The notes beneath the pieces were generated by a model. That model was not told the origin of the DNA and did no database searches. It saw only the letters and a program-made list of their open reading frames with translations. Positions 25,863 to 52,608 of a stretch of DNA of 64,000 nucleotides are shown here, piece by piece. The position numbers and the translations under genes were made by a program. The DNA is from Morinoia aosen. Taxonomy: Eukaryota > Arthropoda > Malacostraca > Amphipoda > Talitridae. The stretch covers positions 60,652,514 to 60,716,513 of the forward strand of contig CM059557.1 in NCBI GenBank assembly GCA_030386875.1, given 5' to 3'. Within the stretch, counting starts at the first letter, position 1, and the number at the start of each line of letters is the position of its first letter.

Positions 25863-26177
25863 TGTTCCGGCCCTTTCAGTATCAGGTCGTAACTAAACGC
25901 GAATGAGGTTCGGGAGTGAATCACAGCCGAATGTAGTTATTCTTTATTGTACTTCAGAATTGACACAGGCTTCGTAATTGGTAGAGAACCTTTAGATCGG
26001 AAGATAATCTCGATACTTTATAGCGCATCAGTGACCTCTACAGATGCTTTCTCGACAGCCGAGCTCCGCTACTGACAGCGACGCTTTTGTTTGTAAACTC
26101 GACCTCTACGGCAGACCACCGCTAAATGAACCACGGTGTCTCTCGCCGATCCTATTTATATGCCTGGCGGGCGCACA
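25863..26177 (-). repeat. Gypsy-1 3' LTR
   Basis: 315 bp. Read on the minus strand it begins TGTGCGCCCGCCAGG, has a TATA box (catataaatagg) about 17 bp in, carries an AATAAA signal (acaataaagaat) and ends GGGCCGGAACA. The element's polypurine tract, gtggggggg, lies just inside it at about 26183-26194. Confidence 0.92.
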
Positions 26178-27172
26178 TCTAGGACCCCCCCACGCACAAA
26201 AATTTTTTATTACAATAAAAATATTTTTAAAACGTCAATCAATCACATTGATTATCCTTTGACGATCAATAACTCTTACAACTCGTCGAGTTAATTACAC
26301 AGATCAGAAAAATTGCTTCCGAATTATGAACGGAGGTAGGCAGGTATGGCCTTTGCCGTCATCATAAACAAATTTCAACGGTAATCCTACATCTTGTTAA
26401 ACATTATTTTTAGTGTCAATTCAATACTAGATTTATTACCTAAAATCAACCAAATAATCACTCTACGCACTTAGCTCAAACAATTTGTTTATTCATATCA
26501 AGTTATTTATCAATTGATTCATAGAATTCTTGGATACTCCAGATACTTTGGATACGAATGGATACACCACACAATTTTATTAACATATCAAAATATCAAA
26601 ATCAAACACCAAAACGCGTACTTAATAAATCCTTTCCATAAGGTATACTTTTTTGAACAAAATGGACACCTACCGTCAGATCGAGAACAAAATTTTTATT
26701 TAGGATTAACATATGAACATATTTCGAGAACAGAATTTTCAATGCAATGGGAAATAAAAAGGAAAACTCCATCATAAGACTAAGTTACACAAAAATTTCA
26801 AAAAGAGGTTTAAATGCGCTAAACAGTACATTACATTACCACAATTGGCAAGGTAAAAGTAGAATAGGAATCAAATACGATTTAAAATAACATATCTCAA
26901 TTCAACTAAATTAAAGATTGCAAGGAAATAAAAGAAAAATCAATAGCTAATTCAATTCCACCAATCTAAAACAATAAATGAACTTAGCAGAGGGCGAGTA
27001 ACGCGACATCAATGTTTATAATTAACGACAATAAAAACATATTCCGTATATTCCGTATATAATAGAAAAAATCTCCGTATAAAATAGTAGTAATCTAAGA
27101 CATGGGAGGATTCTACTCCTCGGGAGATATTAAAACCAAGAATATGATAATCAGATCCATCTTAATCAGAGC
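26178..27172 (-). other. Gypsy-1 3' untranslated region
   Basis: AT-rich. It is homologous to 41759-42711 of Gypsy-2 (for example tcctcccatgtcttagatta and gatgtcgcgttactcgcc on the minus strand) and ends in the polypurine tract. No gene. Confidence 0.7.
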
Positions 27173-27487
27173 TTAAGGTGAAACTGCAATTACTTGTTTA
27201 GGACTAGTACAGATTTCTTTTAAGGCGGTTCGACGCAAAGCGACGTCCTCACCACTCAGACGACCTGTTACTCTATTAAGGTCGCGTTTTATGTAAATAA
27301 TCATTACCGTAATTATGATAGTAATTATCGTGTAAAGAAGCAACATTATGTCGCTCAACTGGTCAGGAATGAGATCTACTCTCGTTTCCTCGGTGTGTCG
27401 GATGAGTTCATCCGATATTTGACCGTTGTTGGCTTTAATCGCCGTTAGAATGGTGTCTACATTAAGGTTAGACACTCTGTTGCCCAT
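27173..27487 (-). CDS. Gypsy-1 accessory protein B: candidate myristoylated single-pass membrane protein, 104 aa
   Basis: Starts MGNRVSN: Gly2 and Ser6 fit the N-myristoylation consensus (M-G-x-x-x-S/T). Residues 41-47 read PDQLSDI, followed by one hydrophobic segment (about 47-66, MLLLYTIITIIITVMIIY) and then a basic stop-transfer KRDLN. The tail has RLSGEDVALRRTAL. It is 315 nt, last in the element, ~115 nt downstream of accessory gene A. The same protein occurs in Gypsy-2 (41432-41758) and, clearly diverged but colinear, in Gypsy-3 (53841-54158), so it is a maintained gene. It is not a classical envelope: too short, with no signal peptide or fusion-protein features. Function unknown; membrane targeting of particles is one guess. 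Confidence 0.75.
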   Translation of the reverse strand: MGNRVSNLNVDTILTAIKANNGQISDELIRHTEETRVDLIPDQLSDIMLLLYTIITIIITVMIIYIKRDLNRVTGRLSGEDVALRRTALKEICTSPKQVIAVSP

Positions 27488-27605
27488 CTTAGCAGGCCAA
27501 AAAGCTACTAACAGCGCGGGAATTAAAATTGTGATTTATTTTAATCACATAAATGTGATAAATAAATTATGACTTTATAAATGTTGATGTAGAAAAAGTA
27601 ATTCC

Positions 27606-27827
27606 TCACTGGATATTTGTTGGGAATGCAGCAATTCTGATTATGAACACGAGTTCGACGTGTTCTCCCGATTCAAATACTTGAATTCGAGTACGCAACG
27701 GGGATTCGAGGTTCAGGAACACTTGAAAGTTGCAGTAGGCTTCTTGTAATACTTCCTTTCGTATCTTGATACCGAAGACTATTTTTGTTTCCTGCGGCTG
27801 CCACAGTTGATTTACCCCGGTGCACAT
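27606..27827 (-). CDS. Gypsy-1 accessory protein A, 73 aa, unknown function
   Basis: Starts MCTGVNQLWQPQETKIVFGI and ends IIRIAAFPTNIQ. It alternates hydrophobic and polar residues as in a small beta-rich domain (RTRIQVFESGEHVELVFIIR). Nearly identical to 41087-41308 in Gypsy-2, where the changes are few and mostly conservative. A 75-residue protein in the Gypsy-3 leader (61618-61845) may be a distant relative through a shared Y-x(1-3)-NF...P...R(I/V)..(E/F)..G(E/D) pattern. No signal peptide or catalytic motif is visible. Not recognised. Confidence 0.65.
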   Translation of the reverse strand: MCTGVNQLWQPQETKIVFGIKIRKEVLQEAYCNFQVFLNLESPLRTRIQVFESGEHVELVFIIRIAAFPTNIQ

Positions 27828-27935
27828 CGGGATTTAAACGTGTTCAGAATAAAAAGTGGAAGTCTAGCGTTGTAGTATTAAACGCTAACCTTAGGTGGAA
27901 CAGCAAGTATTTGCTTATTACAATGGCATTAAACG

Positions 27936-28448
<513 letters not shown>

Positions 28449-29064
28449 GTTAGATAAGTACGCTACCAAGTACTAATTGAAGGTTCAAAGTGTATGTGTA
28501 TCTTGTAAATCGGAGTGTGCACTGTCCTGGAATTGTTCAGGAGTCGCCCAAGGATTCTGAAAGGATACGATACAGGATATTAGCATGGCCACAAGTTTAA
28601 GTAAGCAATTGTCGTTTCATAATAAGGCAACGCTTCATTCTCATTAAGACACATTCTCATTAAGACGCTTTCATTCCAACTACACTGCCTAGCATTGTTG
28701 TCAAACAATCTGCGGCAGATTCGAGGCAGCTCTCGCGGTTGCACACTCGCACTCTCGTGTCGACATCTCCACGATTACGTCTCAGTTTATCAACTCTAGC
28801 TGACGGCTTGACGAGCACAGCTCTTGATGTCGCAACAACAGTATGACAACATCCTGAGCTCAACATCTCTTCTGAAGGTGTTAGCGCAACACAATATTTC
28901 CTAACGCAAGACATACATAAAGTCTTAAGAAAGAAACTCGTAGAACACTCATACAAGCTAGAAACTCATTGAACGAACTTACAAACTAAATACCATTGAA
29001 ATACATATATGGAATGGCATTTTCAGAATATAAGGAATGAACAGCTCCAACTAGGTTGACAATT
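28449..29064 (-). other. Gypsy-1 spacer between pol and accessory genes
   Basis: Homologous to 40334-40980 of Gypsy-2. A 98-codon open frame here (28660-28956) is broken by a stop in Gypsy-2 and is not taken as a gene. Confidence 0.6.
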
Positions 29065-32000
29065 TTACCTTCTTAACTTATCTAAAGGCAGCACATAGTT
29101 TAGGTTCGATCGGATAATCTTGTTACCGATCTTAATATCTGCGTAGTTTTTACCTAGCTTTTCAATGATACCTGGTCCTAAGAAATTTAGCTGTAATTTG
29201 TGTTTTTTGGCATGATTTTTTACTAGTACACGGTCCATCACTTTTAAATTTTTATCGCGACGTTTCATATTTCTATAGGCAGTTCTTTCGATTGTGGCGT
29301 TAATGATCGCATTTCTAATATTGTTCACTACAATAGATGACTCGGTAAATTTTTGTTTGTGAACATCTTCATATGTAGTCGCAACATTGAAGTCTTCTAA
29401 ATTTGTAGAACTGATATAAACACACGTATCTCCACCGAAAACCGTGTATGCGGGTGTATCTCCTAAAGTTTCATTATAGCTATTATTAATCGAATTCTCT
29501 ACAATATCCAGCAATCTATCCCACTCATTATGAGTAAGAAAATTTAGATATAACTTGAGCAGGTGTCGAATTTTACCATTACATCGCTCAACATTGCCGT
29601 TTGAAAAAGGGGAATAAGCTAGAACTTCCTTTTTTAAGATAGAAAGTCCTTTTGTGAAATTTCTTACATTAGAGGATTTAAATTCCAGGGCATTGTCGGA
29701 CAGTAGCACGTCCGGGGTACCAAACAAACAGCAAAAATTCCATAGACAGTCTGTAACAGTCTCTGTACATCGGTCACTAGTCGAATATAATTTAACAAAA
29801 CGTGAAAATAGGTCGATAAATACAAGAATATATTTGTTACCATTGTCCGTCATTGGTAATGGACCGTAGAAGTCCATGCTGACCGTTTGAAAACATCGTG
29901 TTCCAATTGGAGCATTTAGAATTTTAATCGGCGTCGGTATTCGTGATTTTAGAATCTTACAGATGTCACAAGATTCAACAATTTTGCGTGTAATTGTCCG
30001 TTCGTACGGATGAAAATATTTTAATTTAAACTTAAACAAGGTATGATTCAAATCTGTATGGGACAAATTGTGTATGAATAGAATTGTCTTGTGCAACAGA
30101 GTATATGGCACCACAATAGTCAGAATGGTGCTGGGTCTGTTGTCAATTCTTCGTCTTTTATACAAAATGTCATTCATAATCAGAAATTCATTCATGTCAG
30201 TATTAGAAACTTTTGTTGCATTCTCTAGGGCATCCTTCATTTCAGAACAGAAGGCATCACTATCTTGTTCACGTTTAAATTCGTCTAACGACCAGTTGTC
30301 GTTAATACTTGAATGGTCTGTAGTCTTGTTAACTTTATCCAGTCTGCATAAGCTCGTTTTCTGTCTGCTATTAAAGTCACTGGGTTCACGTCTGGGGCTT
30401 TCAGCAGTACTGTTGTTGTTTCTTCCGTCATCATTTCCTGGCATTGTCTCCTCGAGCTCTTCCTCAGTCACGGGCTTGTTACATTTGTTACCCGCAGCAG
30501 CGGCTTGCAGCCTGGTTACAACGGGAAAAGTCTCTACATCTGGGGTTAAATCAGAACACTCTAATAGTTCTCTTTCTGTTAAGGGATTTTTGTCATGATT
30601 TAATCTACTTAATGCATCGGCGGCACTATTCGCTTTCCCAGAAAAATACTTTAATTTGGCATCAAAGGCTTGGACATAAATACTCCACCTAGCGAGCGTG
30701 TTGTCTTCAGGCAATTTCTTTGAAAACAAAGGAACTAAAGGCTTATGATCGGTGTAAATGACCAGATCGTAGCCTAAAACAAGATATTCAAAGTACTTTA
30801 ACGCTTCAACTATAGCGAACATTTCCTTTTTCGTAGTTGAGTATCGTCGTTGAGTGGAATTCAACGTTTTAGAGAAAAATGCGACAGGTCTCATGTTTCG
30901 AATTTTATCAGTAGATGACTGGAGTAAAACAGCTCCTATGCCTACATTCGATGCATCACAAAACAGATGAAATTTTTGATCGAAGTTTGGGTGACTCAAG
31001 ACCGTGCTTTCACACAGTTCACCCTTTAATTTTTCAAAAGCGTTTTGACAATCTTTTGACCAATTGAATTCGACATTTTTCTTTAGAAGATTATAGAGTG
31101 GGCTTGCGATACTCGCAAAATTTTTTATGTACCTACGAAAGAAATTTACTAGTCCTAGAAATGACTGTAGTTGTTTAACATTCTTTGGAATTTCTAAATT
31201 CTTTACTTTGTCAGTACCGGTGCTTCTGGTTCCCATTCCACTAATGGAATGTCCTAAATATTCAATCTCGTCACGGAAAAACTCACATTTTTCCGTTTTG
31301 ATTGACAATCTAGCGTTTCTTAATAGTTCAAGTACAACTTTTATATCGGCAAGATGCTGTGCCTTCTCCTTAGAAAATATGAGCACGTCGTCCATAAAGA
31401 CGAAAGATAGTTTTCCTAGAACAGGAGATAGCGTTTGCGTCATGACAGACTGGAAATATGCAGGTGAGGTTTTTAAACCAAAGGGTAAACGATTAAATTC
31501 ATATTTTCTACTACCAACTGTAAATGCGGTTATTTCTTTACTCTCATCGGTCAGTGTAATATTATGATATCCTGACCTAAGATCTAGTTTTGAAAAATAT
31601 TTTTGACCATTTAAACTATAGAGAAGCTCGTCCACTCGCGGCAGCGGAAATGATTCTTCATGAATTACCTCATTTACTTTGCGAAAGTCAACTACCGGAC
31701 GTATAGTTCCATCTTTCTTATGAACTACAATTATCGGTGAATTATAAGCTGAAATCGATGGTCTAATAATTCCGTCGTCTAACATTTTTTCGTTAACGAC
31801 TTTCAAGTCTTCCATGTAACGGTGGGCAATACGATAGGGAGGGACATTTACGACATCCACGTTAGGTTTCAAACGTATTTTGTATGGTTTAATTGCAGCA
31901 GCTGAGATCGATTCATTGTCTATAGTAATAACGTCTCTGAATTCATTCAACAAACTCAGCAATTCAGGCTTCATTTCGTCATCGTTACACTTGATATCAT

Positions 32001-32494
32001 CATTATTTAATTTCCGCCGACCACGGGCTACTTCTTTGGAATCATAAACGTACCCTTCGTCGACAACTCCTGTGATCCCGACAGATTTACTATTAGTGTC
32101 TTTCTTCTCGACATCTAAATGACTATCCTGAACAACACTCGCTGCCTCCACAAAGGTACTCAATCCTTCCTTTAATTCTCCTTGTACATCTGACAAGTAA
32201 ACTTCGGATTCAATGTGATCCCTCTCCACTTTTTCTAAAGTACTTATAATTGCATTCTCTGGTAAAACAATCGCTCTGTCGGAGCTATTAATTAACAACA
32301 ACGGAATCTTTCTCCTATTATTAACTCTCACAATCGCTTCTGCGACACAAATGCCTTCTTTTAAAGTTGCTTTCTTTATTATGTATTCTCCATTTTTACA
32401 CTTTCCAACATGTCCAACATGTTTCAAAATTACATTAGGAGCAATTTCAATTCTTTGAGTATGCACTCTTAACGGCCTTGGCCTTGTTTGGGAA
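29065..32494 (-). pseudogene. Gypsy-1 pol, 3' part: reverse transcriptase, RNase H, integrase
   Basis: C-terminal ~1,140 codons of pol, open from the Gypsy-2 insertion point to the stop. Motifs in order: RT with PVVDFRKVN, LPFGLKTSPAYFQ and FMDDVLIFS; RNase H with FCDASNVGIGAVLLQ and TDHKPLVPLF; integrase zinc motif ending SCDICK; integrase DDE as VSMDFYGPLP, LLSDNALEFKS and VERCNGK, with 35 residues between the second Asp and Glu. The catalytic residues are all present. It counts as broken only because Gypsy-2 separates it from the protease part (43001-43964). The frame rejoins cleanly at Ala-Val-Thr-Asn-Ser once the insertion and one TTGG are removed. Confidence 0.93.
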
Positions 32495-32498
32495 TTGG

Positions 32499-32783
32499 TG
32501 TGCGCCCGTTCCCGTCAGGCTACATAAATAGAGCCGACAAGAAGTATCGGCGTTCATTTGTGACTGGTTGCCGTAGAGGTCACATTCTAAACAGAGTCGT
32601 CGCTGTCAGTAGAGAGAGCGTGACGATCAAGGCAGCACCGTAGTAGCGATCTACTGTCAACTCTGAAGCCCTTGTAAATTACGAAGTACCAAATAAAAGG
32701 AGCATCACGTCACTCCATTGTGTATTCACTCCCGAACCTCATTCGCGTAGTTTCGACCAGGATTACTAAAAAGGGTCGGAACA
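32499..32783 (+). repeat. Gypsy-2 5' LTR
   Basis: 285 bp with TG/CA ends. The TATA box is acataaatag and the polyadenylation signal is AATAAA (accaaataaaagg). It is followed by TTTCTGGTGGCCGC, the candidate primer-binding region. Confidence 0.92.
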
Positions 32784-33815
32784 TTTCTGGTGGCCGCAGT
32801 ATGGGGAGCCACATTCAAGATATCAACATTGTCACATTGCCCCATTGAAGAAGAAAGATATCAAGAATTGATCTTCAGTTCTGCTGATCCGTGATCTTAA
32901 GTGTGAGGAGTGTCACCCTGTTGGAGTAACGTCGCATAGTTATCACATTACTTCAGAGCATCGAGAAAGGGAAGAAAGACGTCAGCGCAGAAAATCAAAG
33001 TGCTTTCCAAGAAACTCTTCGAGAAAGAAACTCTTCGAGAAAGAAACACTTCGAGGGAGAAAAAATCTACTCATCGCTACTCAAAGGAGAAGATGATGTG
33101 AGGGGTCCAGACCAACAAACTGGTCTGTCGACGAGATCTACGCATCTACGCACCGTCATCTGCAACGAGAAGATCTACGAGAACTACGCATCGCCAAAAT
33201 ATTAAGTTAAGTGTACGCCGATAATGTTGCTTGCAAAGTATATAAGCATGCGCTCAACTAAATGATTATACATCAGCAATACAAAATTAAATTTAATTTA
33301 AAATTAATGAGTAAGCAGCAAGCAGTAAGTAGTAAGTAGTAAGCAGTAGCACTCAGCAGTAAGCAGTAGGCATTGCAAGCGCACGCTGATCCCTGGAAGT
33401 GCGGAGGCAAGTTGATTCCCGGAAGGAGCGCAGAGCGAGCGGTGTAGGCAGGCATTGCAAAAGCGCAGGTAAGCAAGCTGGTTCCCAGTAGTCAGAGAGC
33501 GAGCGTGTACGCGGAAGAAGTTGTGTACTGAGGTAGTCCATTGTTCTCAAACAATTGAAGGAAGTTGTTGCTATTGTTCGCGGGCTCATTGTCCCCTAGC
33601 AAATAAGAGTAAGCTGGAGCGGTTTGCGCAGTTCAGTTTGCTGCCAACCTTCGCGAGTGCTGGAATAGCTTGGTTTAAGCCCACTGAAAATGTGAGTTAA
33701 AATTTTATTGTATGTAGAATATTATCAATTGCATGTAGAAAATTATATTGTGTGTAGAACATTTTTCTTTTAATGGAAATTGGAGGTTTATGAATATAGG
33801 ATTATTTTTGTGCTT
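32784..33815 (+). other. Gypsy-2 leader
   Basis: Homologous to the Gypsy-1 leader (45416-46408). It contains a ~17-bp tandem repeat (gaaactcttcgagaaa, about 33010-33060) and an AGTAAG/CAGTAAG-rich stretch (33310-33370). No gene supported. Confidence 0.6.
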
Positions 33816-35279
33816 ATGTCGAACAGTGACTCTGACGAATACGAGTACATAAGAACAACCCCTTATTTGACCAACTTTGGTAGGTTATCCGTCCCTGTTT
33901 TCAGATTGTCAATTCCGCAAATACCTAGCACGATGGCGACCACTGTTACCCCTGTTATCAGTGCAGCAGTTACGACAATTAGCGCTGTGACTGGTACGGT
34001 TACCGCTGTGACAACTTCTATTGTAGGTCCAATACCTAGTGTTGTGATTGCTGGTCAGGATTTACCGCAGTACCGTGGTAGGAAACGAAAGGAAGATCCT
34101 GACTTCATAGAAAACAAATCGCTTGAAACGCACATTAAGAATGTAAGAGCTTATTTTCATATGCTGTCGGATACTTCAGAAGAAGCAAAATTAAATCTGT
34201 TACTAAGGACGGCAGACAAGCGGGTAGGAGATTTCAATTCAGTATTAGCCTCTATAATTAGTGAAGGGTACGAATTAACTTTCGAAGAAGTCGTGCACCT
34301 GTTAGAAAATATCTACGTATCAAAAGGTGAAAGATCTTTGCACGCGGTCGCCTGTGATCTAAATAAAGTACGCCTGAAACGTAATGATGCATTAGCTAGC
34401 CAGTTCGTGGCGATATTATCCAAAATCCGTAAGCTAACCCACAGAGTAATGACCAGCCCGGAGTGTTCGAACAGAGCTCACCCCTATGTAGTAAATTGTC
34501 CCGATCCTGCTGCTCTCGATAAGTATGTCGAGAATACTTTAATTGTTGCGTTAGCTATGGTCATTATCAACCCCTTAGTGACAGAAGAGTTTTCAAAAAA
34601 ACTGTTCAACAAACCTTTCAGTTCGTCTGAAGAACTTCTTCAGAGGATAGTCACTGTTATTAGGAATTTTCCCGAAGATAAACACATCTTAGCGACTAGA
34701 ACTGAGAGATCTATGGAAATCTATTGTGCTGAGGATGGTCATTCGTCCGATTCAAACTTCGAAGCACATGATGAGGTTGAAGTGCATACAATAGCAAGGG
34801 GTGGTTTCCAAACTAGAGGTAGGACGCGTAGACCTTTCTCAAGACCCTTCTCAAGACCCTACTTCCCGAGGCCGAACTTCCGTGCTAGACCTCATGTAAA
34901 ATCCTTTTTTGGAGATAGAGAATTAGGAACTCTAGAAGTTCAGGCATTGGAAACAGCCACCGAAGCTAGGCGTTGCTCGTATTGCAACAGAAATGTGTGC
35001 GTCTGCCAAAGACAAGGTGCGTCGGTAGAGAAACCGACTGATTGGTACAAACCAAGTTTAGGGCAGACGGCCGCCGAGCAGTCGCGGAGTAGCGGGGCTT
35101 GTTTTCGTTGTAATAAGTTAGGACACTACGCAAGAGATTGTAGGTCCAGACAGGATTATTTCAGCAAGTCAGGTCGGCCTGATTGTGGCCGTGCGCGAGG
35201 ACAGTATAAAACTCGAGTGTCAGAAAAAGACCAGGTAGAAACTTACCAAACTAACAGTGGAAATGATTTTTTAGCGTAA
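33816..35279 (+). CDS. Gypsy-2 gag, 487 aa
   Basis: Capsid/nucleocapsid polyprotein. The start at 33816 (MSNSDSDEYEYIRTTPYL) is the first true ATG of the frame and matches the MGDSDSD start of Gypsy-3 gag; the upstream 12 codons need a non-ATG start. After a Thr/Val-rich N-terminal segment comes a helical capsid-like region with SKGERSLHAVACDLN and LLRTADKRVGDFN, then a basic Arg-rich stretch and one zinc knuckle CFRCNKLGHYARDC (C-x2-C-x4-H-x4-C) near the C-terminus. It ends NDFLA. The last codons contain the slippery site for pol. Confidence 0.9.
   Translation: MSNSDSDEYEYIRTTPYLTNFGRLSVPVFRLSIPQIPSTMATTVTPVISAAVTTISAVTGTVTAVTTSIVGPIPSVVIAGQDLPQYRGRKRKEDPDFIENKSLETHIKNVRAYFHMLSDTSEEAKLNLLLRTADKRVGDFNSVLASIISEGYELTFEEVVHLLENIYVSKGERSLHAVACDLNKVRLKRNDALASQFVAILSKIRKLTHRVMTSPECSNRAHPYVVNCPDPAALDKYVENTLIVALAMVIINPLVTEEFSKKLFNKPFSSSEELLQRIVTVIRNFPEDKHILATRTERSMEIYCAEDGHSSDSNFEAHDEVEVHTIARGGFQTRGRTRRPFSRPFSRPYFPRPNFRARPHVKSFFGDRELGTLEVQALETATEARRCSYCNRNVCVCQRQGASVEKPTDWYKPSLGQTAAEQSRSSGACFRCNKLGHYARDCRSRQDYFSKSGRPDCGRARGQYKTRVSEKDQVETYQTNSGNDFLA
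35267..35273 (+). promoter_or_regulatory. Gypsy-2 gag-pol -1 frameshift site
   Basis: T TTT TTA in the gag frame (GAT TTT TTA GCG TAA), a canonical X XXY YYZ heptamer two codons before the gag stop. The -1 frame continues open as F-S-V-S-S-G-E-D-F into pol. The same heptamer sits at the same place in Gypsy-1 and Gypsy-3. Confidence 0.75.
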
Positions 35280-36727
35280 GCAGCGGAGAAGATTTCATTT
35301 CCAATAGGAATAACGTCAATGGAAGAAATAAAATTAAGAGTGACTCTACGGCAATAGGGCCCTTTGAACCCGAGGAGAATTCTGGTGCTGAAGATTCCCT
35401 CGTTAAAAATGTTGAGAAAATCGATACGATCATAGTGTGTCACAACAGATATGAAGCGCTGGGAGAGGCGGAATTAAGCGTAATAGAAAGCCATGTCACG
35501 GCGAACGTTTGTAAATATGAAGAAAATGAAGAAGTTGAAGTCACAGGATAAAATGAATTATTTGAAATACGAAAAAGTCATAAGCCCATGATTGTGCTTA
35601 GTAAAGATGCTGACCTGTGGAATGCATTGATTGATTCAGGATCAGAGAAGTGCCTAATCAGCTACCACAGAATAAGTGAGATAAGTAATGACGTGAAGCC
35701 AAGTTCTCTGACTATAAAAGGCGTTAACGCTAAGAGTAATGTTGAAGGCGAGGTGGAGCTTGTCCTAAAGTTAAAAAACGGTGTAAGTTTGAAGACAAAT
35801 GCTCTCATAATTAAAGATGGTATTTATAATTATGACGTCATTATTGGGCGTGATTTATTAGACAAGAACGCCGTTGTAGACTTGAAACAAAGATGTTTAA
35901 TTATCAAGGACGAGAAAATTCCTTTTGCAGAGGTAAAACGACGAAAAAAGAGAAAGACGGAGTGTCTCGAGTATTTAATAGAGAATACTGAGTGTCTCAT
36001 GGCAGACACGATTACGTCCAGAGCTAAGAAAAAAGTCCTAAATAAACTAAGAGAGAAGACGTGTAATGCCGCGAGAGTCGGCGAGGAAGTAAAAAGGGAT
36101 GGTAAGATAAAAAATCAGCCTGTTCACGGCGTAGTTGCAGTTACCAGTTCCAGCTCCCATCCAGGGCCAAGGCCGTTAAGAGTTCATACACAAAGAGTAG
36201 AAATTGCTCCCAATGTAATTTTGAAACATGTTGGACATGTTGGTAAGTGTAAAAATGGAGAGTACATAATAAAGAAAGCAACTTTAAAAGAAGGCATCTG
36301 CGTAGCCGAAGCAATTGTGAGAGTTAATAATAGGAGACAGATTCCGTTGTTGTTAATTAATAGCTCCGACAGAGCGATTGTTTTACCAGAGAATGCAATA
36401 ATAAGTACTTTAGAAAAGGTGGAGAAGGATCAAGTTGAGGCCGAAGTCTACTTGGCCGATGTACAAGGAGAGTTAAAAGGAGGATTAAGTACCTTGGTGC
36501 AGGCAGCTAGTGTTGTTCAGGACAGTCATGTGGATGTCGAGAAGAAAGACACCAAATGTAATTCTGTCAGAATATCAGGAGTTGTCGACAAAGAGTACAT
36601 TTCTGACTCCAAAGAATTAGCCCGTGGTCGGCGGAAATTAAATAATGATGATATCAAGTGTAACGATGAAGAAATGAAGCCTGAGTTGCTGAGTTTGTTA
36701 AATGAAATCAGAGACGTTATTACTATA
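35273..36727 (+). pseudogene. Gypsy-2 pol, 5' part (protease), with nonsense codon
   Basis: Follows gag in the -1 frame. A TAA at 35549-35551 replaces the CAA found in Gypsy-1 (TGQNELF context), a single C-to-T change. After it the frame is open again: retropepsin active-site region LWNALIDSGSEKCLISY (Asp-Ser-Gly), then VIIGRDLLDK, then a Lys/Arg-rich linker and the region leading to RT. The mariner interrupts it after ...IRDVITI. Its continuation is 37478-40333 in the same frame. Gypsy-1 carries the undamaged equivalent of this stretch. Confidence 0.88.
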
Positions 36728-37475
36728 CGAGGCCTGTCTAAAAAGTATCCGACCTTTGGCCAGAAAAAATATTTCGAATACCTGTCGGAGTTGGGACCCT
36801 AATCCCCTTCAAAGTATGCCCCTTGTGCTTGCACACACTTAGCCCACCGATCCTTCCACTGCTGGAAACACCTCTGGTAGTTTTTTTTTAGAATGGTGTT
36901 CAGCTCCATCGTCGCATTGCCTGTTTGACTCCTTCGATGCTGACTGTTTTCTTTGATGTCCGTGGAATTGTGTGTCACGAATACGCACTGGAAGGACAAA
37001 CAGTGACAAAGGAGTACTATCAGGATGTTCTCCGGCGACTTCGTGATGCAGTTCGGCGCAAAAGACCAGACATGTGGACTGCGAACAACTGGCACTTGCA
37101 TCACGACAACGCGCCCGCACATTCATCCCATTTGATCCGCAATTTCTTGGCCAAACATGGAATTACGACCGTTCGCCAACCTCCCTACTCTCCAGACCTG
37201 GCTCCTTGCGACTTCTGGTTGTTTCCAAAATTGAAGACACCACTGAAAGGATCCCGTTTTGAGAGTAGAGAAGAGATAATGCGGAACGCGACGACAGAGC
37301 TGAACACCATTCCAAAAGAAGACTTCCAGAGGTGTTTCCGGCAGTGGAAGGATCGGTGGGCTAAGTGTGTGCAAGCACAAGGGGCATACTTTGAAGGGGA
37401 TTAGGGTCCCAACTCCGACAGGTATTCGAAATATTTTTTCTGGCCAAAGGTCGGATACTTTTTAGACAGGCCTCG
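36728..37475 (+). mobile_element. Rearranged mariner element in Gypsy-2 pol
   Basis: 748 bp with TA duplicated at both ends (36726-36727, 37476-37477) and ends CGAGGCCTGTCTAAAAAG. Normal mariner ends are ~30 bp. Here the first ~195 bp (36728 to about 36921) are an inverted copy of the last ~195 bp, including the 3' end of the transposase gene, with scattered mismatches. The 5' third of the transposase gene is gone. The element plus TA is 750 bp, so it keeps the pol frame, but it carries stops. Confidence 0.88.
36925..37404 (+). pseudogene. Mariner transposase, catalytic part only, 5'-truncated
   Basis: About 159 codons of a D,D34D mariner transposase. FFDVRGIVCHEY holds the first Asp, HHDNAPAHSS the second, and YSPDLAPCDFWLFPKLK the third, 34 residues later. 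The C-terminus (RWAKCVQAQGAYFEGD) is complete. The N-terminal paired-type helix-turn-helix DNA-binding region is missing and has been replaced by the inverted copy of the 3' end. It cannot encode a full transposase. Confidence 0.88.
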
Positions 37476-37477
37476 TA

Positions 37478-40333
37478 GATAATGAATCGATCTCTGCTGC
37501 TGCAATTAAACCCTATAAAATACGTCTAAAACATAACGTGGATGTTGTAAACGTCCCTCCCTATCGTATTGCCCACCGTTACATGGAAGACTTGAAAGTC
37601 GTTAACGAAAAAATGTTAGACGACGGAATTATTAGACCATCGATTTCAGCTTATAATTCACCGATAATCGTAGTTCATAAGAAAGATGGAACTATACGTC
37701 CGGTAGTTGACTTTCGCAAAGTGAATGAAGTAATTCATGAAGAATCATTCCCGCTGCCGCGCGTGGACGACATTCTCTATAGTTTAAATGGTCAAAAATA
37801 TTTTTCAAAACTAGATCTTAGGTCGGGATATCATAATATTACACTGACCGATGAGAGTAAAGAAATAACCGCATTTACAGTTGGTAGCAGAAAATTTGAA
37901 TTTAACAGGTTGCCGTTCGGCCTCAAAACCTCACCTGCTTATTTCCAGTCAGTAATGACACAAACATTGTCCCCTGTTCTAGGAAAACTAGTTTTCGTCT
38001 TTATGGACGACGTACTCATTTTCTCAAAGGAAAAGGAGCAGCATCTTGCTGATATAAAAGTTGTACTTGAACTACTAAGAAACGCTAGATTGTCAATCAA
38101 AACCGAAAAGTGTCAGTTTTTCGCCGGAGAAATTGAATATCTCGGACATTCCATTAGCGGAATGGGAACCAGAAGCACCGGTACTGATAAAGTGAAGAAT
38201 TTAGAAATTCCTAAGAATGTAAAACAGTTGCAATCTTTTCTAGGACTAGTGAATTTCTTTCGTAGATACATAAAAAATTTTGCGAGCATCGCAAGCCCGC
38301 TCTATAATCTGCTGAGGAAAAATATCGAATTCAATTGGTCTAAGGACTGTCAAAACGCTTTTGAAAAATTAAAGGATAAATTGTGCGCAAACACCACCTT
38401 GAGTCATCCAAACTTCGATCAAAAATTTCATTTGTTTTGTGATGCATCGAATGTGGGCATAGGAGCTGTTTTACTCCAGTCAGCTACTGATAAGGTTCGA
38501 AACATGAGACCTGTTGCATTTTTCTCTAAAACGTTGAATTCCACTCAACGTCGATACTCAACTACGAAAAAGGAGATGTACGCTATAGTTGAAGCGTTAA
38601 AGTACTTTAAATATCTTGTTTTAGGCTATGATCTGGTTGTATATACCGATCATAAGCCGCTCGTCCCATTATTTTCAAAGAAATTACCTGAAGACAACAC
38701 GCTCGCGAGATGGAGCATATATGTCCAAGCCTTTGATGCCAAATTAAAGTATTTTTCCGGAAAGGCGAATAGTGCCGCCGATGCATTAAGTAGATTAAAT
38801 CATGACAAAAATCCTTTAACAGAAAAAGAACTGTCAGAGTGTTCTGATTTAACCCCAGATGTAGAGACTTTTCCCGTTGTAACCAGGCTGCAAGCCGCTG
38901 CTGCGGGTAACAAAAGTAACAAACCCGTGACTGAGGAAGAGTTCGAGGAGACAATGCCAGGAAATGATGACGGAAGAAACAACAACAGTACTGCTGAAAG
39001 CCCCAGACGTGAACCCAATGACTTTAAGAGCAGACAGAAAACGTGCTTATGCAGACTGAATAAAGTGAACACGACTACAGACCATTCAAGTATTAATGAC
39101 AACTGGTCGTTAGACGAATTTAAACGTGAACAAGATAACGATCCCTATTGTTCCGAAATAAAGGATGGCATAGAGAATGCAACGAAAGTTTCTAATACTG
39201 ACTTAAATGAATTTCTGATTATGAATGACATTTTGTATAAAAAACGAAGAATTGACAACAGACCCAACACCATTCTGACGATCGTGGTGCCATATACTCT
39301 GCTACACAAGATAATTTCTTTCATTCATAATTTATCACATACGGATTTAAATCATACCTTGTTTAAATTTAAATTAAATTATTTTCATCCGTACGAACGG
39401 ACAATTACGCGCAAAATTGTTGAATCCTGTGATACCTGTAAGATTCTAAAATCACGAATATCGACGCCGATTAAAATTCTAAATGCTCCAATTGGAACAC
39501 GATGTTTTCAAACGGTCAGCATGGACTTCTACGGTCCATTACCAATGACGGACAATGGTAACAAATATATTCTTGTAATTATTGACCTCTTTTCACGATT
39601 TGTTAAATTATATTCGACTAGTGACCGATGTACAGAGACTGTTACAGATTGTCTATGGAATTTTTGCTGTTTGTTCGGTACCCCGGACGTATTGTTGTCC
39701 GACAATGCACTAGAATTTAAATCATCTAATGTAAACATTTTCACTAAAGGACTTTCTATCTTAAAAAAGGAAGTTCTAGCTTATTCCCCTTTTTCAAACG
39801 GGATTGTTGAGCGATGTAATGGTAAAATTCGACATCTGCTCAAGTTATATCTAAATTTTCTTACTCATAATGAGTGGGATAGATTGCTGGATATTGTAGA
39901 GAATTCGATTAATAATAGCTATAACGAAACTATAGGAGATACCCCAGCATACACAGTTTTCGGTAGAGATACGTGTGTATATATTAGTTCAAGTAAATTA
40001 GAAGACTTCAATGTTGCGACTACATATGAAGATGTTCACAAACAAAAATTTACCGAGTCATCTATTGTAGTGAACAATATTAGAAATGCGATCATTAACG
40101 CCACAATAGAAAGAACTGCCTATAGAAATATGAAACGTCGCGACAAAAATTTAAAAGTGACGGACCGTGTACTAGTAAAAAATCATGCCAAAAAACATAA
40201 ATTACAGCTGAATTTCCTCGGGCCGGGTATCATTGAAAGTCTAGGTAAAAATTATGCAGATATTAAGATCGGTAACAAGATTATCCGATCGAACCTGAAT
40301 CATGTGTTGCCCCTAGATAAGTTAAAAAAGTGA
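37478..40333 (+). pseudogene. Gypsy-2 pol, 3' part: reverse transcriptase, RNase H, integrase
   Basis: Resumes pol directly after the mariner, open to the stop at 40331-40333. It begins with the region before RT (DNESISAAAIKP-like), then PVVDFRKVN, LPFGLKTSPAYFQ, FMDDVLIFS, FCDASNVGIGAVLLQ, TDHKPLVPLF, SCDTCK, VSMDFYGPLP, LLSDNALEFKS and VERCNGK. All RT, RNase H and integrase active-site residues are present. It lies in the same frame as the protease part. It differs from Gypsy-1 pol by scattered, mostly conservative changes. Confidence 0.92.
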
Positions 40334-41086
40334 AATTGTCAACCTAGTTGGAACTGTTCATTCCTTATATGTATTCTGAAAATGCCATTCCATATATGTA
40401 TTTCAATGGTATTTAGCTTGTAAGTTCGTTCAATGAGTTTCTAGCTTGTAAGAGTGTTCTACGAGTTTCTTTCTTAAGACTTTATGTATGTTTTGCGTTA
40501 GGAAATGTTGTGTTGCGCTAACACCTTCAGAGGAGATGTTGAGCTCAGGATGTTGTCATACTGTTGTTGCGACATCAAGAGCTGTGCTCATCAAGCCGCC
40601 AGCTAGAGTTGATAAACTGAGCTGTAATAAACTGAGTCTGATGAACTGAGCTGAGGTGATGTCGACATGAGAGTGCGAGTGTGCAACCGCGAGAACTGCC
40701 TCGATTCTGCCGCAAATTGTTTGGCAACAATGCCAGACACTGTGGTCGGAATGAATGTGTCGTAATGCGAATGAAGCGTTGCCTTAGTATGGAATGATAA
40801 TTGCTATTTTAAACTTGGGGCCATGCTAATGTCGTGTGTCGTTTCTTTTTCAGAATCCTTGGACGACTCCTGAACAATTCCAGGACAGTGCACACTCCGA
40901 TTTGCAAGATACACACACACTTTGAACCTTCAATTAGAAATTGGCAGCATACTTATCTAACATCAATAAATCAATTAAAGTTTAATACCATTGTAATAAG
41001 CAAATATTTGCTGTCCCACCTAAGGTTAGCGTTTAATACTACAACGCTAGACTTCCACTTTTTATTCTGAACACATTTAAATCCCG
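40334..41086 (+). other. Gypsy-2 spacer between pol and accessory genes
   Basis: Non-coding; aligned with 28449-29064 and 27828-27935 of Gypsy-1. It lacks the tetranucleotide array. Confidence 0.6.
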
Positions 41087-41308
41087 ATGTGCACCGGAGT
41101 AAACCAACTGTGGCAACCGCAGGAAACAAAAATAGTCTTCGGTATAAAGATACGAAAGGAAGTATTACAAGAAGCCTACTGCACTTTTCAAGTGTTTCTC
41201 AACCTCGATTCACCGTTGCGTACTCGAATCAAAATTTATGAATCCGGAGAACACGTCGAACTTGTGTTCATAATCAGAATTGCTGCATTCCCAACAAATA
41301 CCCAGTGA
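41087..41308 (+). CDS. Gypsy-2 accessory protein A, 73 aa
   Basis: Same protein as 27606-27827 with a handful of replacements (for example CTFQ for CNFQ, NLDS for NLES, RIKIY for RIQVF). It is intact although pol is broken, as expected if the damage is recent. Probably made from a spliced or internally initiated RNA, since it lies ~750 nt after pol. Function unknown. Confidence 0.65.
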   Translation: MCTGVNQLWQPQETKIVFGIKIRKEVLQEAYCTFQVFLNLDSPLRTRIKIYESGEHVELVFIIRIAAFPTNTQ

Positions 41309-41431
41309 GGAATTACTTTTTCTACATCAACATTTATAAAGTCATAATTCGTTCATCACATTAAAGAATTGTGATTAAAATAAATCACAATTCTAATCCC
41401 CGCATTAATAGCCGCGTTCTGGCCTGCTAAG

Positions 41432-41758
41432 ATGGGCAATAGGGTGTCAAATGTTAATGTCGATACCATCCTAACCGCAATAAAAGCAAATAATGGTCAA
41501 ATCTCGGATGAACTTATCCGACACACTGAGGAAACGAGAGTTGATCTCATTCCTGACCAGTTGAGCGACATAATGTTGCTTCTCTACACAGTAATTACCA
41601 TCATCCTTGCGGTGATGATTATTTATATAAAACGGGATCTACACAAGGTCATTAGCCGAATTAGTGGTGAGGATGTCGCCTTGCGTCGAACCGCTTTAAA
41701 AGAAATCTGTAACGGTCCTAGGCAGATCCCGTCAGTCTCACCTCAAGTCAGCGTGTAA
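41432..41758 (+). CDS. Gypsy-2 accessory protein B: candidate myristoylated single-pass membrane protein, 108 aa
   Basis: Starts MGNRVSNVNV (Gly2, Ser6 myristoylation-type). It is conserved with Gypsy-1 through RVDLIPDQLSD, a hydrophobic segment at about residues 47-66 (MLLLYTVITIILAVMIIY) and SGEDVALRRTALKEIC, with a slightly longer tail (PSVSPQVSV). The start codon is preceded in both Gypsy-1 and Gypsy-2 by ggcctgctaag. Topology by the positive-inside rule is unclear, since both sides are charged. Confidence 0.75.
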   Translation: MGNRVSNVNVDTILTAIKANNGQISDELIRHTEETRVDLIPDQLSDIMLLLYTVITIILAVMIIYIKRDLHKVISRISGEDVALRRTALKEICNGPRQIPSVSPQVSV

Positions 41759-42711
41759 CATTACAATTCTAGACTCCCACATTTTGTATTTGAATGCCAT
41801 AGATCTAAATATCATGTTTTGATTATCCAATCTTCCGAGGGGTAGAAACCCTCCATGTCTTAGATTAATTCTATTTTATATGCTGTATTTTAAAAGTTCT
41901 ATTATATACGGATTGTGTTTTTGCTGTCGATACTATAACCCTTGATGTCGTTTTACTCGCCTTATGGAAAAGCTTTATTCACGCGAAATAAAGAGACGAA
42001 TTTTTATATTGCGAATAAAAACCTATTGAATAAATTTAGCTATTGATTATTCTCTTTACTTCACTTTCAATAATTAATTTAGTTAAATTGAAACAATTTA
42101 AATTGAATCAAAGGACGATTGAATCCTATTCTACTTTTACCTTGCAAATTGTAGTAATGTAATGTACTCTCCTGCGTATTTGAACTTATATTCTACATTT
42201 TATGTAACCTAGATTTATGATGGATTTTCCCTTTTTCATTTCTTAACCTTAAGAATGTGTCGCGATAATTTTCATTTGCATTAACAATTTTTTCTATAAA
42301 TGAATTGTACCTTATGTAGTTGGTTTGTTTCGTATGCGTTTTGATATGTTAATAAAATTGTGTGGTGTATCCATTCGTATCCAAAATATCTGAAGTACCA
42401 AGAGTTCTTAGAAACGAATGATAAATCACTTGATAATAAATTAAAAAATTGTTGAGCTCAATGCGTAGAGTGGTTAATTATTTGATTTTGTTCACACAAT
42501 CAAGTTTTGTATGGAAACTAAAATTAATATCGGGATGTAGGCTTACCGCTGAAAATTGTTAATTGTTGCTAAAGCCGTACCCTAACTACCTCCGCTCACA
42601 TTCGGAAGTTTTATGTAAGCTTTATTGATAGTAATGGGAATTCATGATCGTTAGTTAGCGTTTTAAAATATTTTTGCGGTACTAAAATATTTTATCAACG
42701 GGGGGACCTTC
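41759..42711 (+). other. Gypsy-2 3' untranslated region
   Basis: AT-rich, homologous to 26178-27172 of Gypsy-1, ending in the polypurine tract. No gene. Confidence 0.65.
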
Positions 42712-42996
42712 TGTGCGCCTGTTCCCGTCAGGCTACATAAATAGAGCCGACAAGAAGTATCGGCGTTCATTTGTGACTGGTTGCCGTAGAGGTCACATTC
42801 TAAACAGAGTCGTCGCTGTCAGTAGAGAGAGCGTGACGATCAAGGCAGCACCGTAGTAGCGATCTACTGTCAACTCTGAAGCCCTTGTAAATTACGAAGT
42901 ACCAAATAAAAGGAGCATCACGTCACTCCATTGTGTATTCACTCCCGAACCTCATTCGCGTAGTTTCGACCAGGATTACTAAAAAGGGTCGGAACA
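42712..42996 (+). repeat. Gypsy-2 3' LTR
   Basis: 285 bp, one substitution from the 5' LTR (CCT for CCC at base 9). Preceded by the polypurine tract cggggggacc. Confidence 0.92.
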
Positions 42997-43000
42997 TTGG

Positions 43001-43964
43001 TAACTGCAACTACGCCTCGAACAGGCTGATTTTCTCTCTTACCATCCCTTCTTACTTCCTCACTTGCTTTCTCAGCAATGCACGTCCTCTTCTCTCTTAG
43101 CTTATTTAGGACTTTTTTCTTAGCTCTGGACGTAATCGTGTCCGCCATGAGACACTCAGTATTCTCTATTAAATACTCGAGACACTCTGTCTTTTTCTTT
43201 TTTCGTCGTTTTACCTCTGCAAAGGGAATTTTCTCATCTTTGATAATTAAACATCTTTGTTTTAAGTCTACCACGGCGTTCTTGTCCAATAAATCACGCC
43301 CAATAATGACGTCATAATTGTAAATACCATCTTTAATTATTAAAGCATTTGTCTTTAAACTTACACCGTTTTTTAACTTTAGGACAAGCTCCACCTCGCC
43401 CTCAACATTACTCTTAGCGTTAACGCCTTTTATAGTCAGAGAACTTGGCTTCACGTCATTACTTATCTCACTTATTCTGTGGTAGCTGATTAGGCACTTA
43501 TCTGATCCTGAATCAATCAATGCATTCCACAGGTCTGCATCTTTTCTAAGCACAATCATGGGCTTATGACTTTTTCGTATTACAAATAATTCATTTTGTC
43601 CTGTAACTTCAACTTCTTCATCTTCTTCGTATTTACAAACGTTCGTCGTTAAATGGCTTTCAAAACTAGTGCCATGAGCGTTCAGATCATCACTTAATTC
43701 CGCCTCTCCCAGCGATTCATATCTATTTTGACACTTGATGAGTGGATCTACCATCTCAACATTTTTAACGAGGGAACCTCCAGACATGTTTAACACATCA
43801 ACTCTCTCGACATTTTTAACGAGGGAATCTTCAGCACCAGAATTCTCCTCGGGTTCACAGGGATTCGTCGCCGTAGAGTCATACTTAGTTATTGTAGTTT
43901 CATTTTTACCATCGACGTTATTTCTATTGGAAATGAAATCGTCTCTGCTGTTTACGCTAAAAAA
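43001..43964 (-). pseudogene. Gypsy-1 pol, 5' part (protease), cut off by Gypsy-2
   Basis: Runs in the -1 frame from the gag slippery site (43958-43964) to the Gypsy-2 insertion. It contains FISNRNNV, a spacer with a repeated LVKNVE(R/M)VD motif, then the retropepsin site LWNALIDSGSDKCLISY (Asp-Ser-Gly), VIIGRDLLDKNAVV and a Lys/Arg-rich tail. It has no stop before the insertion, whereas Gypsy-2 has one at the position of TGQNELF. The frame picks up at 32494 on the far side of Gypsy-2. Confidence 0.9.
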
Positions 43965-45415
43965 TCATTGGCACTGTTAGTTTGGTAAGTTTCTACCTGG
44001 CCTTTTTCTGACATACGAGTTTTATACTGTCCTCGCGCACGGACACGAGCCGGTCTGCCTGGTCTGTTTAAATAGTCTCTTCTGGATCTACAATCTCTTG
44101 CGTAGTGTCCTAACTTATTACAACGAAAACAAGCTACATCACGCAGTGAATGCTCGGTGGCTGTCTGAGATGAACCTGGTTTGTACCAATCAGTCGGTTT
44201 CCTAGCCACAACGGTTCCCGACACACTTTGTCCTTGACAGACACACACATGATTGTAACAATTCGAGCAACGCTTTGTTTCAGCTGTCTCCACTGCCTGA
44301 ACTTCTAGAGTTCCTAATTCTCTATCTCCAACATAAGATTTTACGTGAGGTCTAGCACGGAAAGTTGGTCTCGGGAAATTTGGTCTCCAGTAGGGCCTAC
44401 GCGTCCTACCTCTACCTCGAAATCCGCCTCTTTCTGTTGTATGCACGTCGGCCTCATCACAGGCTGCATCAAAGTTTGATTCGGACGAATGATCATCCTC
44501 AGCACAATAGATTTCCATAGATCTCTCAGATCGAGTCGCTAATATTTGTTTATCCTCGGGAAAATTGCGAATTACAGTCACTAGTCTCTGAAGGAGCTCT
44601 TCCGACGAGTTAAAGGGTTTGTTAAATAGTTTTTTGGAGAAATCTTCGGTGACTAGGGGGTTGATGATAACCATAGCTAATGCAACAATTAAAGTATTCT
44701 CGACATACTTATCGAGGGCAACAGGATCGGGACAATTTACTACATAGGGGTGGGCTCTGTTCGAACACTCCGGGCTGGTCATTATTCTGTGGGTTAGCTT
44801 ACGGATTTTGGATAGAATAGCTACAAACTGGCTCGCTAATGCATCGTTTCTTTTCAGGCGTACGTTATTTAGATCACAGGCGACCGCGTGCAAAGATCTT
44901 TCACCTTTTGATACGTAGATATTTTCTAACAGGTGCACGACTTCTTCGAAACTCAACTCATAACCTTCACTAATTATGGAGGCTACGACCGTATTGAAAT
45001 CGCCTACCCGCTTGTCTGCAGTTCGCAACAATAAGTTTAGTTTCGCTTCTTCAGAATTGTCTGAGAGCATGTTGAAATACGCTCTCACATTTTTTATATG
45101 CGTTTCTAGTGATTTGTTTTCTATGAAGTCCGGGTCATTTCTACGTCTTCTACCTCGGTACTGCGGTAGATCCTGCCCAGCAATCACAACACTAGGTATT
45201 GGACCTACAATAGAAGTTGTCACAGCGGTAACCGTACTAGTTACAGAGCTAACTGTTGTAACGGCTGCACTGATAACGGGGGTAACAGTGGTCGCCATCG
45301 TGCTAGGTATTTGAGGAATTGATAATCTGAAAACAGGGACGGATAACCTACCAAAGCTAGTCAAGTACGGGGTTGTTCTTATGTACTCGTATTCGTCAGA
45401 GTCACTGTTCGACAT
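43952..45415 (-). CDS. Gypsy-1 gag, 487 aa
   Basis: Starts at the first true ATG (45415, MSNSDSDEYEY). Same layout as Gypsy-2 gag: a Thr/Val-rich N-terminus, a capsid-like region (SKGERSLHAVACDLN), an Arg-rich stretch, a Cys-rich piece (CSNCYNHVCVC) and a zinc knuckle CFRCNKLGHYARDC, ending NDFLA at the slippery site. The frame is fully open, so this copy could still supply Gag. It packages RNA and forms particles in related elements. Confidence 0.9.
   Translation of the reverse strand: MSNSDSDEYEYIRTTPYLTSFGRLSVPVFRLSIPQIPSTMATTVTPVISAAVTTVSSVTSTVTAVTTSIVGPIPSVVIAGQDLPQYRGRRRRNDPDFIENKSLETHIKNVRAYFNMLSDNSEEAKLNLLLRTADKRVGDFNTVVASIISEGYELSFEEVVHLLENIYVSKGERSLHAVACDLNNVRLKRNDALASQFVAILSKIRKLTHRIMTSPECSNRAHPYVVNCPDPVALDKYVENTLIVALAMVIINPLVTEDFSKKLFNKPFNSSEELLQRLVTVIRNFPEDKQILATRSERSMEIYCAEDDHSSESNFDAACDEADVHTTERGGFRGRGRTRRPYWRPNFPRPTFRARPHVKSYVGDRELGTLEVQAVETAETKRCSNCYNHVCVCQGQSVSGTVVARKPTDWYKPGSSQTATEHSLRDVACFRCNKLGHYARDCRSRRDYLNRPGRPARVRARGQYKTRMSEKGQVETYQTNSANDFLA
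43958..43964 (-). promoter_or_regulatory. Gypsy-1 gag-pol -1 frameshift site
   Basis: T TTT TTA in the gag frame (GAT TTT TTA GCG TAA), identical in sequence and placement to Gypsy-2. Confidence 0.75.
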
Positions 45416-46408: not shown

Positions 46409-46723
46409 TGTTCCGGCCCTTTCAGTATCAGGTCGTAACTAAACGCGAATGAGGTTCGGGAGTGAATCACAGCCGAATGTGGTTATTCTTTATTGTACTT
46501 CAGAATTGACACAGGCTTCGTAATTGGTAGAGAACCTTTAGATCGGAAGATAATCTCGATACTTTATAGCGCATCAGTGACCTCTACAGATGCTTTCTCG
46601 ACAGCCGAGCTCCGCTACTGACAGCGACGCTTTTGTTTGTAAACTCGACCTCTACGGCAGACCACCGCTAAATGAACCACGGTGTCTCTCGCCGATCCTA
46701 TTTATATGCCTGGCGGGCGCACA
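46409..46723 (-). repeat. Gypsy-1 5' LTR
   Basis: 315 bp, identical to the 3' LTR except for one base seen. Immediately inside it on the minus strand is TTTCTGGTGGCCGC, the candidate primer-binding region. Confidence 0.92.
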
Positions 46724-52193: not shown

Positions 52194-52197
52194 ACCC

Positions 52198-52378: not shown

Positions 52379-52608
52379 TATGCGTAATCCGTATCTAAGG
52401 GTGGATATTGAGTAGACGAGAAGACTTCAACGTGTACTTGACGTAAAGAGGTAGTAGATCCAAATGCGCTCTGCAGCGCTGAGCATGGGGCATTTATACA
52501 CACAATTTGCTGACTCAGCGGCGCACGACGCCTGAGACGCACCAGTCGTGGCACTGTACTTACGTACTAAGCTACATGCGAGGATAAGTGCGTGTCCGTT
52601 TCGGCACA
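52379..52608 (-). repeat. Gypsy-3 3' LTR
   Basis: 230 bp. Minus-strand start TGTGCCGAAACGG, end GGATTACGCATA. The end is CATA rather than plain CA; this choice is fixed by the target duplication and by the shared TA at the inner edge of the 5' LTR. Confidence 0.9.

Follow-up and report, generated by a model that had tools for sequence, protein, structure and literature searches.

Several Drosophila retrotransposons of the MDG1 group that lack an envelope (env) gene, among them 412, Mdg1 and Stalker2, deliver their RNA and capsids from the soma to the oocyte, and their small protein sORF2 co-localises with Gag and has been found together with capsids where protrusions push into the oocyte (PMC11952523, Voichek et al. 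2025 preprint). There sORF2 is described as carrying an N-myristoylation motif, a transmembrane segment, basic residues next to the membrane and a tyrosine after the transmembrane segment, and the authors liken it to the reovirus FAST proteins. They list 105 sORF2/FAST-like open reading frames (ORFs) of 63-107 amino acids (aa) in consensus sequences of Metaviridae from 29 arthropod organisms; moths, butterflies and beetles have the longer ones, and 7 of 22 lepidopteran consensus elements carry such an ORF downstream of pol. Low ratios of non-synonymous to synonymous divergence (dN/dS) for the fly genes are cited there from others, and the stated limitation is that a multi-copy transcript hinders genetics. 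Here we describe a 64,000-nucleotide stretch of the amphipod Morinoia aosen (the window; GCA_030386875.1, contig CM059557.1, positions 60,652,514 to 60,716,513, forward strand), which holds three long Ty3/Gypsy-type elements with long terminal repeats (LTRs), named Gypsy-1, Gypsy-2 and Gypsy-3. Each carries a third gene, ORF3, whose product, judged by analogy, most likely works like an sORF2/FAST-like protein.

ORF3 lies at 27173..27487 on the minus strand in Gypsy-1 (104 aa, a putative sORF2/FAST-like membrane protein), at 41432..41758 on the plus strand in Gypsy-2 (108 aa, 86% identical to the Gypsy-1 protein) and at 53841..54158 on the minus strand in Gypsy-3 (105 aa, 30% identical to the Gypsy-1 protein), where an in-frame ATG at 54230 would lengthen it to 129 aa. 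An earlier note on this DNA, made from the letters alone, had placed three ORFs of about 105 residues here without naming a strand; at the Gypsy-1 and Gypsy-3 coordinates, stops break the frame on the plus strand. The motifs that it listed, MGNR-x-[S/T], PD[QR][LI]SD and ED-x-xLRR, occur in all three proteins, whereas its basic [KR]R[DE]LN after the hydrophobic segment holds for two, Gypsy-2 reading KRDLH. The nearly gapless layout that it described is borne out by the alignment, in which columns 1-91 contain one two-residue gap, a one-residue gap follows at column 92 and the tails beyond are unlike. Its wording that the elements end with this gene is right in that ORF3 is downstream of pol in all three, reading in the direction of gag and pol, but loose in that 0.95-1.2 kb separate ORF3 from the 3′ LTR in each element.

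The three ORF3 proteins are homologous, including the distant Gypsy-3 copy. Comparison of Gypsy-1 with Gypsy-3 by BLASTP gives E 3e-17 (single comparison), and the Smith-Waterman score of 161 against a shuffled mean of 27 was reached by 0 of 2000 shuffles; once residues 1-6 and the hydrophobic segment are left out, the score is still 115 against 27, again with 0 of 2000 shuffles as high. These two proteins share common ancestry. Between Gypsy-1 and Gypsy-2 we count 39.5 synonymous changes over 70.7 sites and 13.5 non-synonymous changes over 226.2 sites (dS 1.02, dN 0.062), a dN/dS of 0.061 that comes from one copy pair, both pairs with Gypsy-3 being saturated at synonymous sites. The same DNA in its other two frames gives 1.96 and 3.64. 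ORF3 is under strong purifying selection, with a ratio far below the value near 1 that had been named beforehand as the mark of a chance frame. When ORFs of 50-150 aa with an MGxxx[S/T] start and a strongly hydrophobic 19-mer were counted, the window held three, all of them ORF3, against two in total across 60 shuffled windows, and this excess together with the low dN/dS makes it nearly certain that ORF3 is a functional gene.

The MGNR-x-[S/T] start of all three proteins matches, by pattern, the MGxxxS/T motif for N-myristoylation. It opens an N-terminal side of 44-46 residues, followed by a hydrophobic segment of 20 and a tail of 38-42. Each protein has one hydrophobic segment (19-residue Kyte-Doolittle maxima of 2.67, 2.75 and 2.06 in Gypsy-1, -2 and -3), and the prediction that it spans the membrane draws on hydropathy, an insertion scale and an AlphaFold helix. 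Net charge is -4, -4 and -2 on the N side and +4, +4 and +2 on the C side, a bias which by the positive-inside rule suggests that the N-terminus faces out and the C-terminus in. An invariant tyrosine (residues 65, 65 and 63) is the next-to-last residue of the predicted segment, at its inner membrane border, and KR or RR follows the segment immediately in all three. The AlphaFold model, run on the alignment of the three sequences and confident only near the membrane segment, has one long helix over residues 26-94, with blocks 51-60 and 61-70 at a predicted local distance difference test score (pLDDT) above 90. From its sequence ORF3 is probably an N-myristoylated single-pass membrane protein with its N-terminus outside and a basic tail of about 40 residues inside, in line with the earlier note's conserved gene for a membrane protein with a myristoylation-type start in three env-less elements.

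Between pol and the 3′ LTR, none of the three elements showed an ORF of env size, in a list that skipped Gypsy-1 frames running through a TTGA array. The longest ATG-started ORFs there are of 104 aa (Gypsy-1), 108 aa (Gypsy-2) and 129 aa (Gypsy-3), the last being ORF3 itself read from the upstream in-frame ATG. The array (27936-28448, 128 copies) sits in Gypsy-1 between pol and the small ORFs and is absent from Gypsy-2.

We propose, with a probability of roughly 0.6, that ORF3 serves Envelope-free transfer from cell to cell, as the infectivity gene of these env-less elements. By analogy it would probably be a substitute for the envelope, because its layout matches that of proteins linked to the passage of fly retrotransposons from body cells to the egg. 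ORF3 would gather with Gag particles at the plasma membrane and, going by the described relatives, might there bring two cell membranes together, such that capsids could pass directly from cell to cell with no need of an Envelope glycoprotein, for example from the soma into the egg. The gene occupies the position of env downstream of pol and would possibly be expressed, like env, from a spliced mRNA. The earlier note had offered cell-to-cell transfer as a speculation, and by the analogy drawn here it is now the best-supported guess; its remark that the protein does not resemble a fusion glycoprotein is correct but leaves small fusogens of the FAST type out of account, and its view that such a gene is not expected in envelope-less Gypsy elements has been overtaken by the 105 published sORF2/FAST-like ORFs. 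It also missed a 73-aa ORF upstream of ORF3 in Gypsy-1 and Gypsy-2, and the excess synonymous divergence of ORF3 over pol.

Several observations weigh against a role in transfer. In the fly system, fusion by sORF2 was not reproduced in cell culture, and the authors state that they made no genetic test of whether sORF2 is needed (PMC11952523). The ectodomain of ORF3, at 44-46 residues, is longer than the roughly 30 of sORF2, a figure given there as a proposed filter and not as a search criterion, and longer than the fewer than 40 residues reported for FAST proteins (PMC7412057). The likeness of ORF3 to sORF2 and FAST proteins is one of described layout, and the three ORF3 proteins have no Pfam match. 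The Gypsy-3 segment is weak on the unweighted insertion scale (-0.01 vs -4.6 and -4.7), and the basic cluster is modest, with the 15 residues past the segment at net +1, +1 and 0. The helical moment of the ectodomain was equalled in 386, 386 and 659 of 1000 shuffles and that of the tail in 92, 30 and 558 of 1000, which is marginal at best and in Gypsy-2 only. As read from the alignment, the tail is without a tyrosine motif like the Grb2-binding one of p14. The AlphaFold model is of low confidence overall, with a mean pLDDT of 67.8 and a predicted template modelling score (pTM) of 0.34.

The rival that survives best, which we nevertheless hold to be unlikely, makes ORF3 an adaptor between Gag and the membrane, anchored by myristate and helix, with a tail that recruits Gag for assembly or budding and with no joining of two cells. 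Gag begins MSNSDSD after a non-ATG opening in Gypsy-1 and Gypsy-2 and MGDSDSD in Gypsy-3, and none of these is a good myristoylation start; aspartate after glycine is disfavoured for N-myristoylation, which makes the Gypsy-3 start a poor one. An adaptor would also accord with the retention of RR(D/E)L and ED-x-xLRR in the tail of ORF3 and with the published co-localisation of sORF2 with Gag. The distribution of constraint, however, speaks for a task of the N-terminal domain rather than of the tail: Gypsy-1 and Gypsy-2 differ at one of the first 46 residues (45/46 identical), at 3 of 20 in the hydrophobic segment and at 10 of 34 in residues 67-100 (24/34 identical), though Gypsy-1 and Gypsy-3 are without such a difference (14/44 identical on the N-terminal side vs 11/33 in the tail). 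Moreover, a myristoyl anchor alone would need no transmembrane helix.

It is improbable that ORF3 is instead an accessory protein, either viroporin-like or blocking a host factor, with membranes, trafficking or a restriction factor as its target. Like ORF3, proteins of this kind are small, with one helix and a basic tail, and accessory genes often diverge fast; ORF3, with 30% identity between Gypsy-1 and Gypsy-3, diverges faster than gag (41%) or the reverse transcriptase (RT)-RNase H region (55%). Set against this are the myristoylation-type start kept in all three proteins and the closer match of the published sORF2 layout. Very improbable is a remnant of env that has kept only its membrane anchor: ORF3 is placed where env lies in Gypsy elements, a candidate splice acceptor may precede it and the Gypsy-1 and Gypsy-2 frame is open and coding-like for 16 codons ahead of the ATG, which a remnant could use as well as a longer form of ORF3, but the ectodomain contains no cysteine and no NxS/T sequon in any of the three, and both the start motif and the purifying selection are in keeping with a small gene that is complete. 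Chance open frames, for which one could cite the short length and a sample of three copies, two of them close, are already refuted by the in-frame dN/dS of 0.06 against 2.0 and 3.6 out of frame, by the likeness of Gypsy-1 to Gypsy-3 that no shuffle reached and by the excess over shuffled windows.

The transfer function that we favour may involve a partner. Just upstream of ORF3, Gypsy-1 (27606..27827, minus strand) and Gypsy-2 (41087..41308, plus strand) each have a second small ORF of 73 aa, 92% identical between the two, in which 12 synonymous and 6 non-synonymous changes give a dN/dS of 0.126 (p 9e-5), against 3.0 and 4.0 in the out-of-frame controls. The protein is predicted to be mostly beta and resembles dynein light chains of the Tctex type weakly and below threshold; the small ORFs have no Pfam match at E 1. 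Its start context is poor (CCCGATGT) and that of ORF3 is good (AAGATGG; ACGATGG in Gypsy-3), so leaky scanning could allow both to be translated from a single mRNA.

Candidate splice sites were scored with a simple weight matrix and with no null, and the scores alone support nothing; all of the sites given here are speculative. The best-scoring acceptors of Gypsy-1 (28556..28575, minus strand, TTTCAG/AAT, position 28556) and Gypsy-2 (40835..40854, plus strand, position 40854) are homologous and co-located upstream of both small ORFs. The first ATG past the acceptor is that of the 73-aa ORF in Gypsy-2, and in Gypsy-1 another short ORF comes earlier. A candidate donor lies before gag in Gypsy-2 (33689..33697, plus strand, AAT/GTGAGT) and is the same in Gypsy-1 at 45539; Gypsy-2 has a higher-scoring one at 33469. 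Gypsy-3 has candidate acceptors ahead of ORF3 at 54308, 54305 and 54189 (54189..54308, minus strand). ORF3 may be made from a spliced mRNA, which in Gypsy-1 and Gypsy-2 would also carry the 73-aa gene. It is an unlikely extension that in these two elements the pair would form a two-gene infectivity cassette on one spliced mRNA read by leaky scanning, with ORF3 and the 3′ end exchangeable between lineages like a retroviral env and the 73-aa partner perhaps a mimic of dynein light chains that moves capsids to the membrane.

Upstream of gag, Gypsy-1 and Gypsy-2 have no ATG-started ORF of at least 40 aa, and Gypsy-3 has one of 75 aa (61618-61845, minus strand). This leader ORF could be a counterpart of the 73-aa ORF, though the comparisons do not show it: BLASTP finds no match between them, their Smith-Waterman score of 36 was reached by 43 of 2000 shuffles and hhalign gives a probability of 0.2%.

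Divergence between Gypsy-1 and Gypsy-2 is uneven along the elements. Their dS is 1.02 in ORF3, against 0.45 in gag, 0.29 in the 73-aa ORF and 0.27 in the 3′ part of pol, and their non-coding identity drops from 93-94% ahead of ORF3 to 80% downstream of it, with the LTRs at 83%. Because divergence in ORF3 and the 3′ end far exceeds that in pol and the 73-aa ORF, these portions were probably acquired from another lineage through recombination (27173-27535 and 41384-41758), with the caution that the middle third of ORF3 has a dS of just 0.39 and that the counts are small. Directly ahead of the ORF3 start in these two elements (27488-27535, minus strand, and 41384-41431, plus strand) the frame is open and coding-like for the 16 codons mentioned above, with a stop directly before them; they differ by 8 synonymous and 2 non-synonymous changes (p 0.0005, post hoc). 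In all three elements F-x-PA-x stands ahead of MGNR, and an N-terminally longer form of ORF3 is possible.

Gypsy-1 (25863..46723, minus strand; LTRs 25863-26177 and 46409-46723, 99.7% identical) is split by Gypsy-2, which is nested inside it (32499..42998, plus strand; LTRs 32499-32785 and 42712-42998, 99.7%), and Gypsy-3 lies apart (52379..62298, minus strand) with identical LTRs (52379-52608 and 62069-62298, 100%). The gag frames are open at 45451-43952 (minus), 33780-35279 (plus) and 60499-59057 (minus) in Gypsy-1, -2 and -3, respectively, and the pol of Gypsy-3 is open too. Pfam finds a zinc knuckle in gag of Gypsy-2 and Gypsy-3, and RT, RNase H and integrase in pol of Gypsy-1 (3′ part) and Gypsy-3. 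The closest RT-RNase H matches are environmental proteins, 60% identical for Gypsy-3 (among the best 120 of 3184) and 53% for Gypsy-1 (among the best 120 of 3646), and the named relatives among the matches listed are from plants, algae and arthropods. Unusual element ends led us to consider Troyka elements, which are described as having CG...CG ends and 3-bp target duplications; the TG...CA ends of Gypsy-1 and Gypsy-2 and the apparent 4-bp duplications at the three elements (ATTG, TTGG and TAAT, judged by eye) ruled this identity out.

At 36726-37477 an insert, about 0.75 kb long, breaks the pol of Gypsy-2; it has inverted ends of 193 bp (96%) and resembles a non-autonomous DNA transposon. After pol, Gypsy-1 has an 84-aa ORF (28660-28914, minus strand) whose Gypsy-2 version (40488-40649, plus strand) is cut to 53 aa by insertions and deletions, the two being 85% identical over 48 residues. 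Elsewhere in the window are a 1.9-kb direct repeat (22533-24464 and 50273-52194, 98.8% identical) and a 317-aa ORF (686-1639, minus strand) with a TNP-like RNase H domain of P-element-type transposases (Pfam PF21787, E 1.5e-9). Rfam finds nothing in the window.

Searches for further carriers of the gene in other elements, which the earlier note had suggested, returned none in the collections used, whose reach is limited for a short, divergent protein. The three-sequence ORF3 alignment drew 116 candidates from the protein database, none at E 0.01 or better, and 77 pattern matches from viral contigs, none confirmed by tblastn. With pol as the query, viral contigs gave no match in one search and 163 pattern matches in another, and genome contigs gave 138; all of these were likewise unconfirmed, and they therefore yield no further ORF3 carriers with context. 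No match to a known envelope or host protein emerged from Pfam or the PDB: Pfam gives nothing for ORF3 at E 0.1, nor at E 10, and a PDB search by sequence with Gypsy-1 ORF3 alone gives 0 matches. One PDB match from the alignment (E 0.19), to a 1748-residue subunit of the anaphase-promoting complex, was taken as chance.

These elements add three carriers, two of them as distant from each other as 55% identity in RT-RNase H, to a class of genes that was proposed only in 2025 and whose proposed role is passage between cells for retrotransposons without Envelope. The strong selection on ORF3 (dN/dS 0.06), here within another gene order, is independent evidence of some function of these proteins on which the elements depend, and the env-like position downstream of pol together with a partner gene makes the question of an Envelope substitute directly testable.

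Finally, we compare ORF3 with its closest described counterparts, beginning with the Envelope of errantiviruses, the endogenous retroviruses of insects. It is likewise a third gene downstream of pol and is expressed there from a spliced mRNA, but it is a large F-type glycoprotein whose signal peptide, furin site and cysteines are all missing from ORF3 (PMC12992720). The reovirus FAST proteins p13, p14 and p15 are like ORF3 in being small and single-pass, with an acylated N-terminus and N-out/C-in topology (both predicted for ORF3) and basic residues next to the membrane, a modest cluster in ORF3 (PMC7412057, PMC7244324), whereas ORF3 shows no obvious counterpart of the proline-rich and Grb2-binding motifs in their tails. 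Membership of the FAST family in the strict sense fails because the ectodomain is too long. With fly sORF2, ORF3 shares an env-less Metaviridae host element, a short frame read in the direction of gag and pol, an MGxxxS/T start (in 4 of 6 fly proteins and in all three here), a single hydrophobic helix directly followed by basic residues, though their cluster is modest here, and a tyrosine at the inner membrane border; it differs in its length of 104-108 aa against about 70, in amphipathic motifs that are not significant and in its place downstream of pol in all three elements, where the fly MDG1 elements have sORF1 and sORF2 upstream of gag. The lepidopteran sORF2/FAST-like ORFs, as described, resemble ORF3 in position downstream of pol, layout and length range, the 104 and 105 aa of Gypsy-1 and Gypsy-3 falling inside the published 63-107 aa and the 108 aa of Gypsy-2 one over. 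ORF3 has the MGxxxS/T start and predicted transmembrane segment for which the preprint's authors searched, and these, with the tyrosine, position and length, are why we consider that it most likely works, by analogy, as an sORF2/FAST-like protein. The kind of gene was thus already published in 2025, and ORF3 is a variant of it with a longer ectodomain and, in Gypsy-1 and Gypsy-2, a partner ORF.
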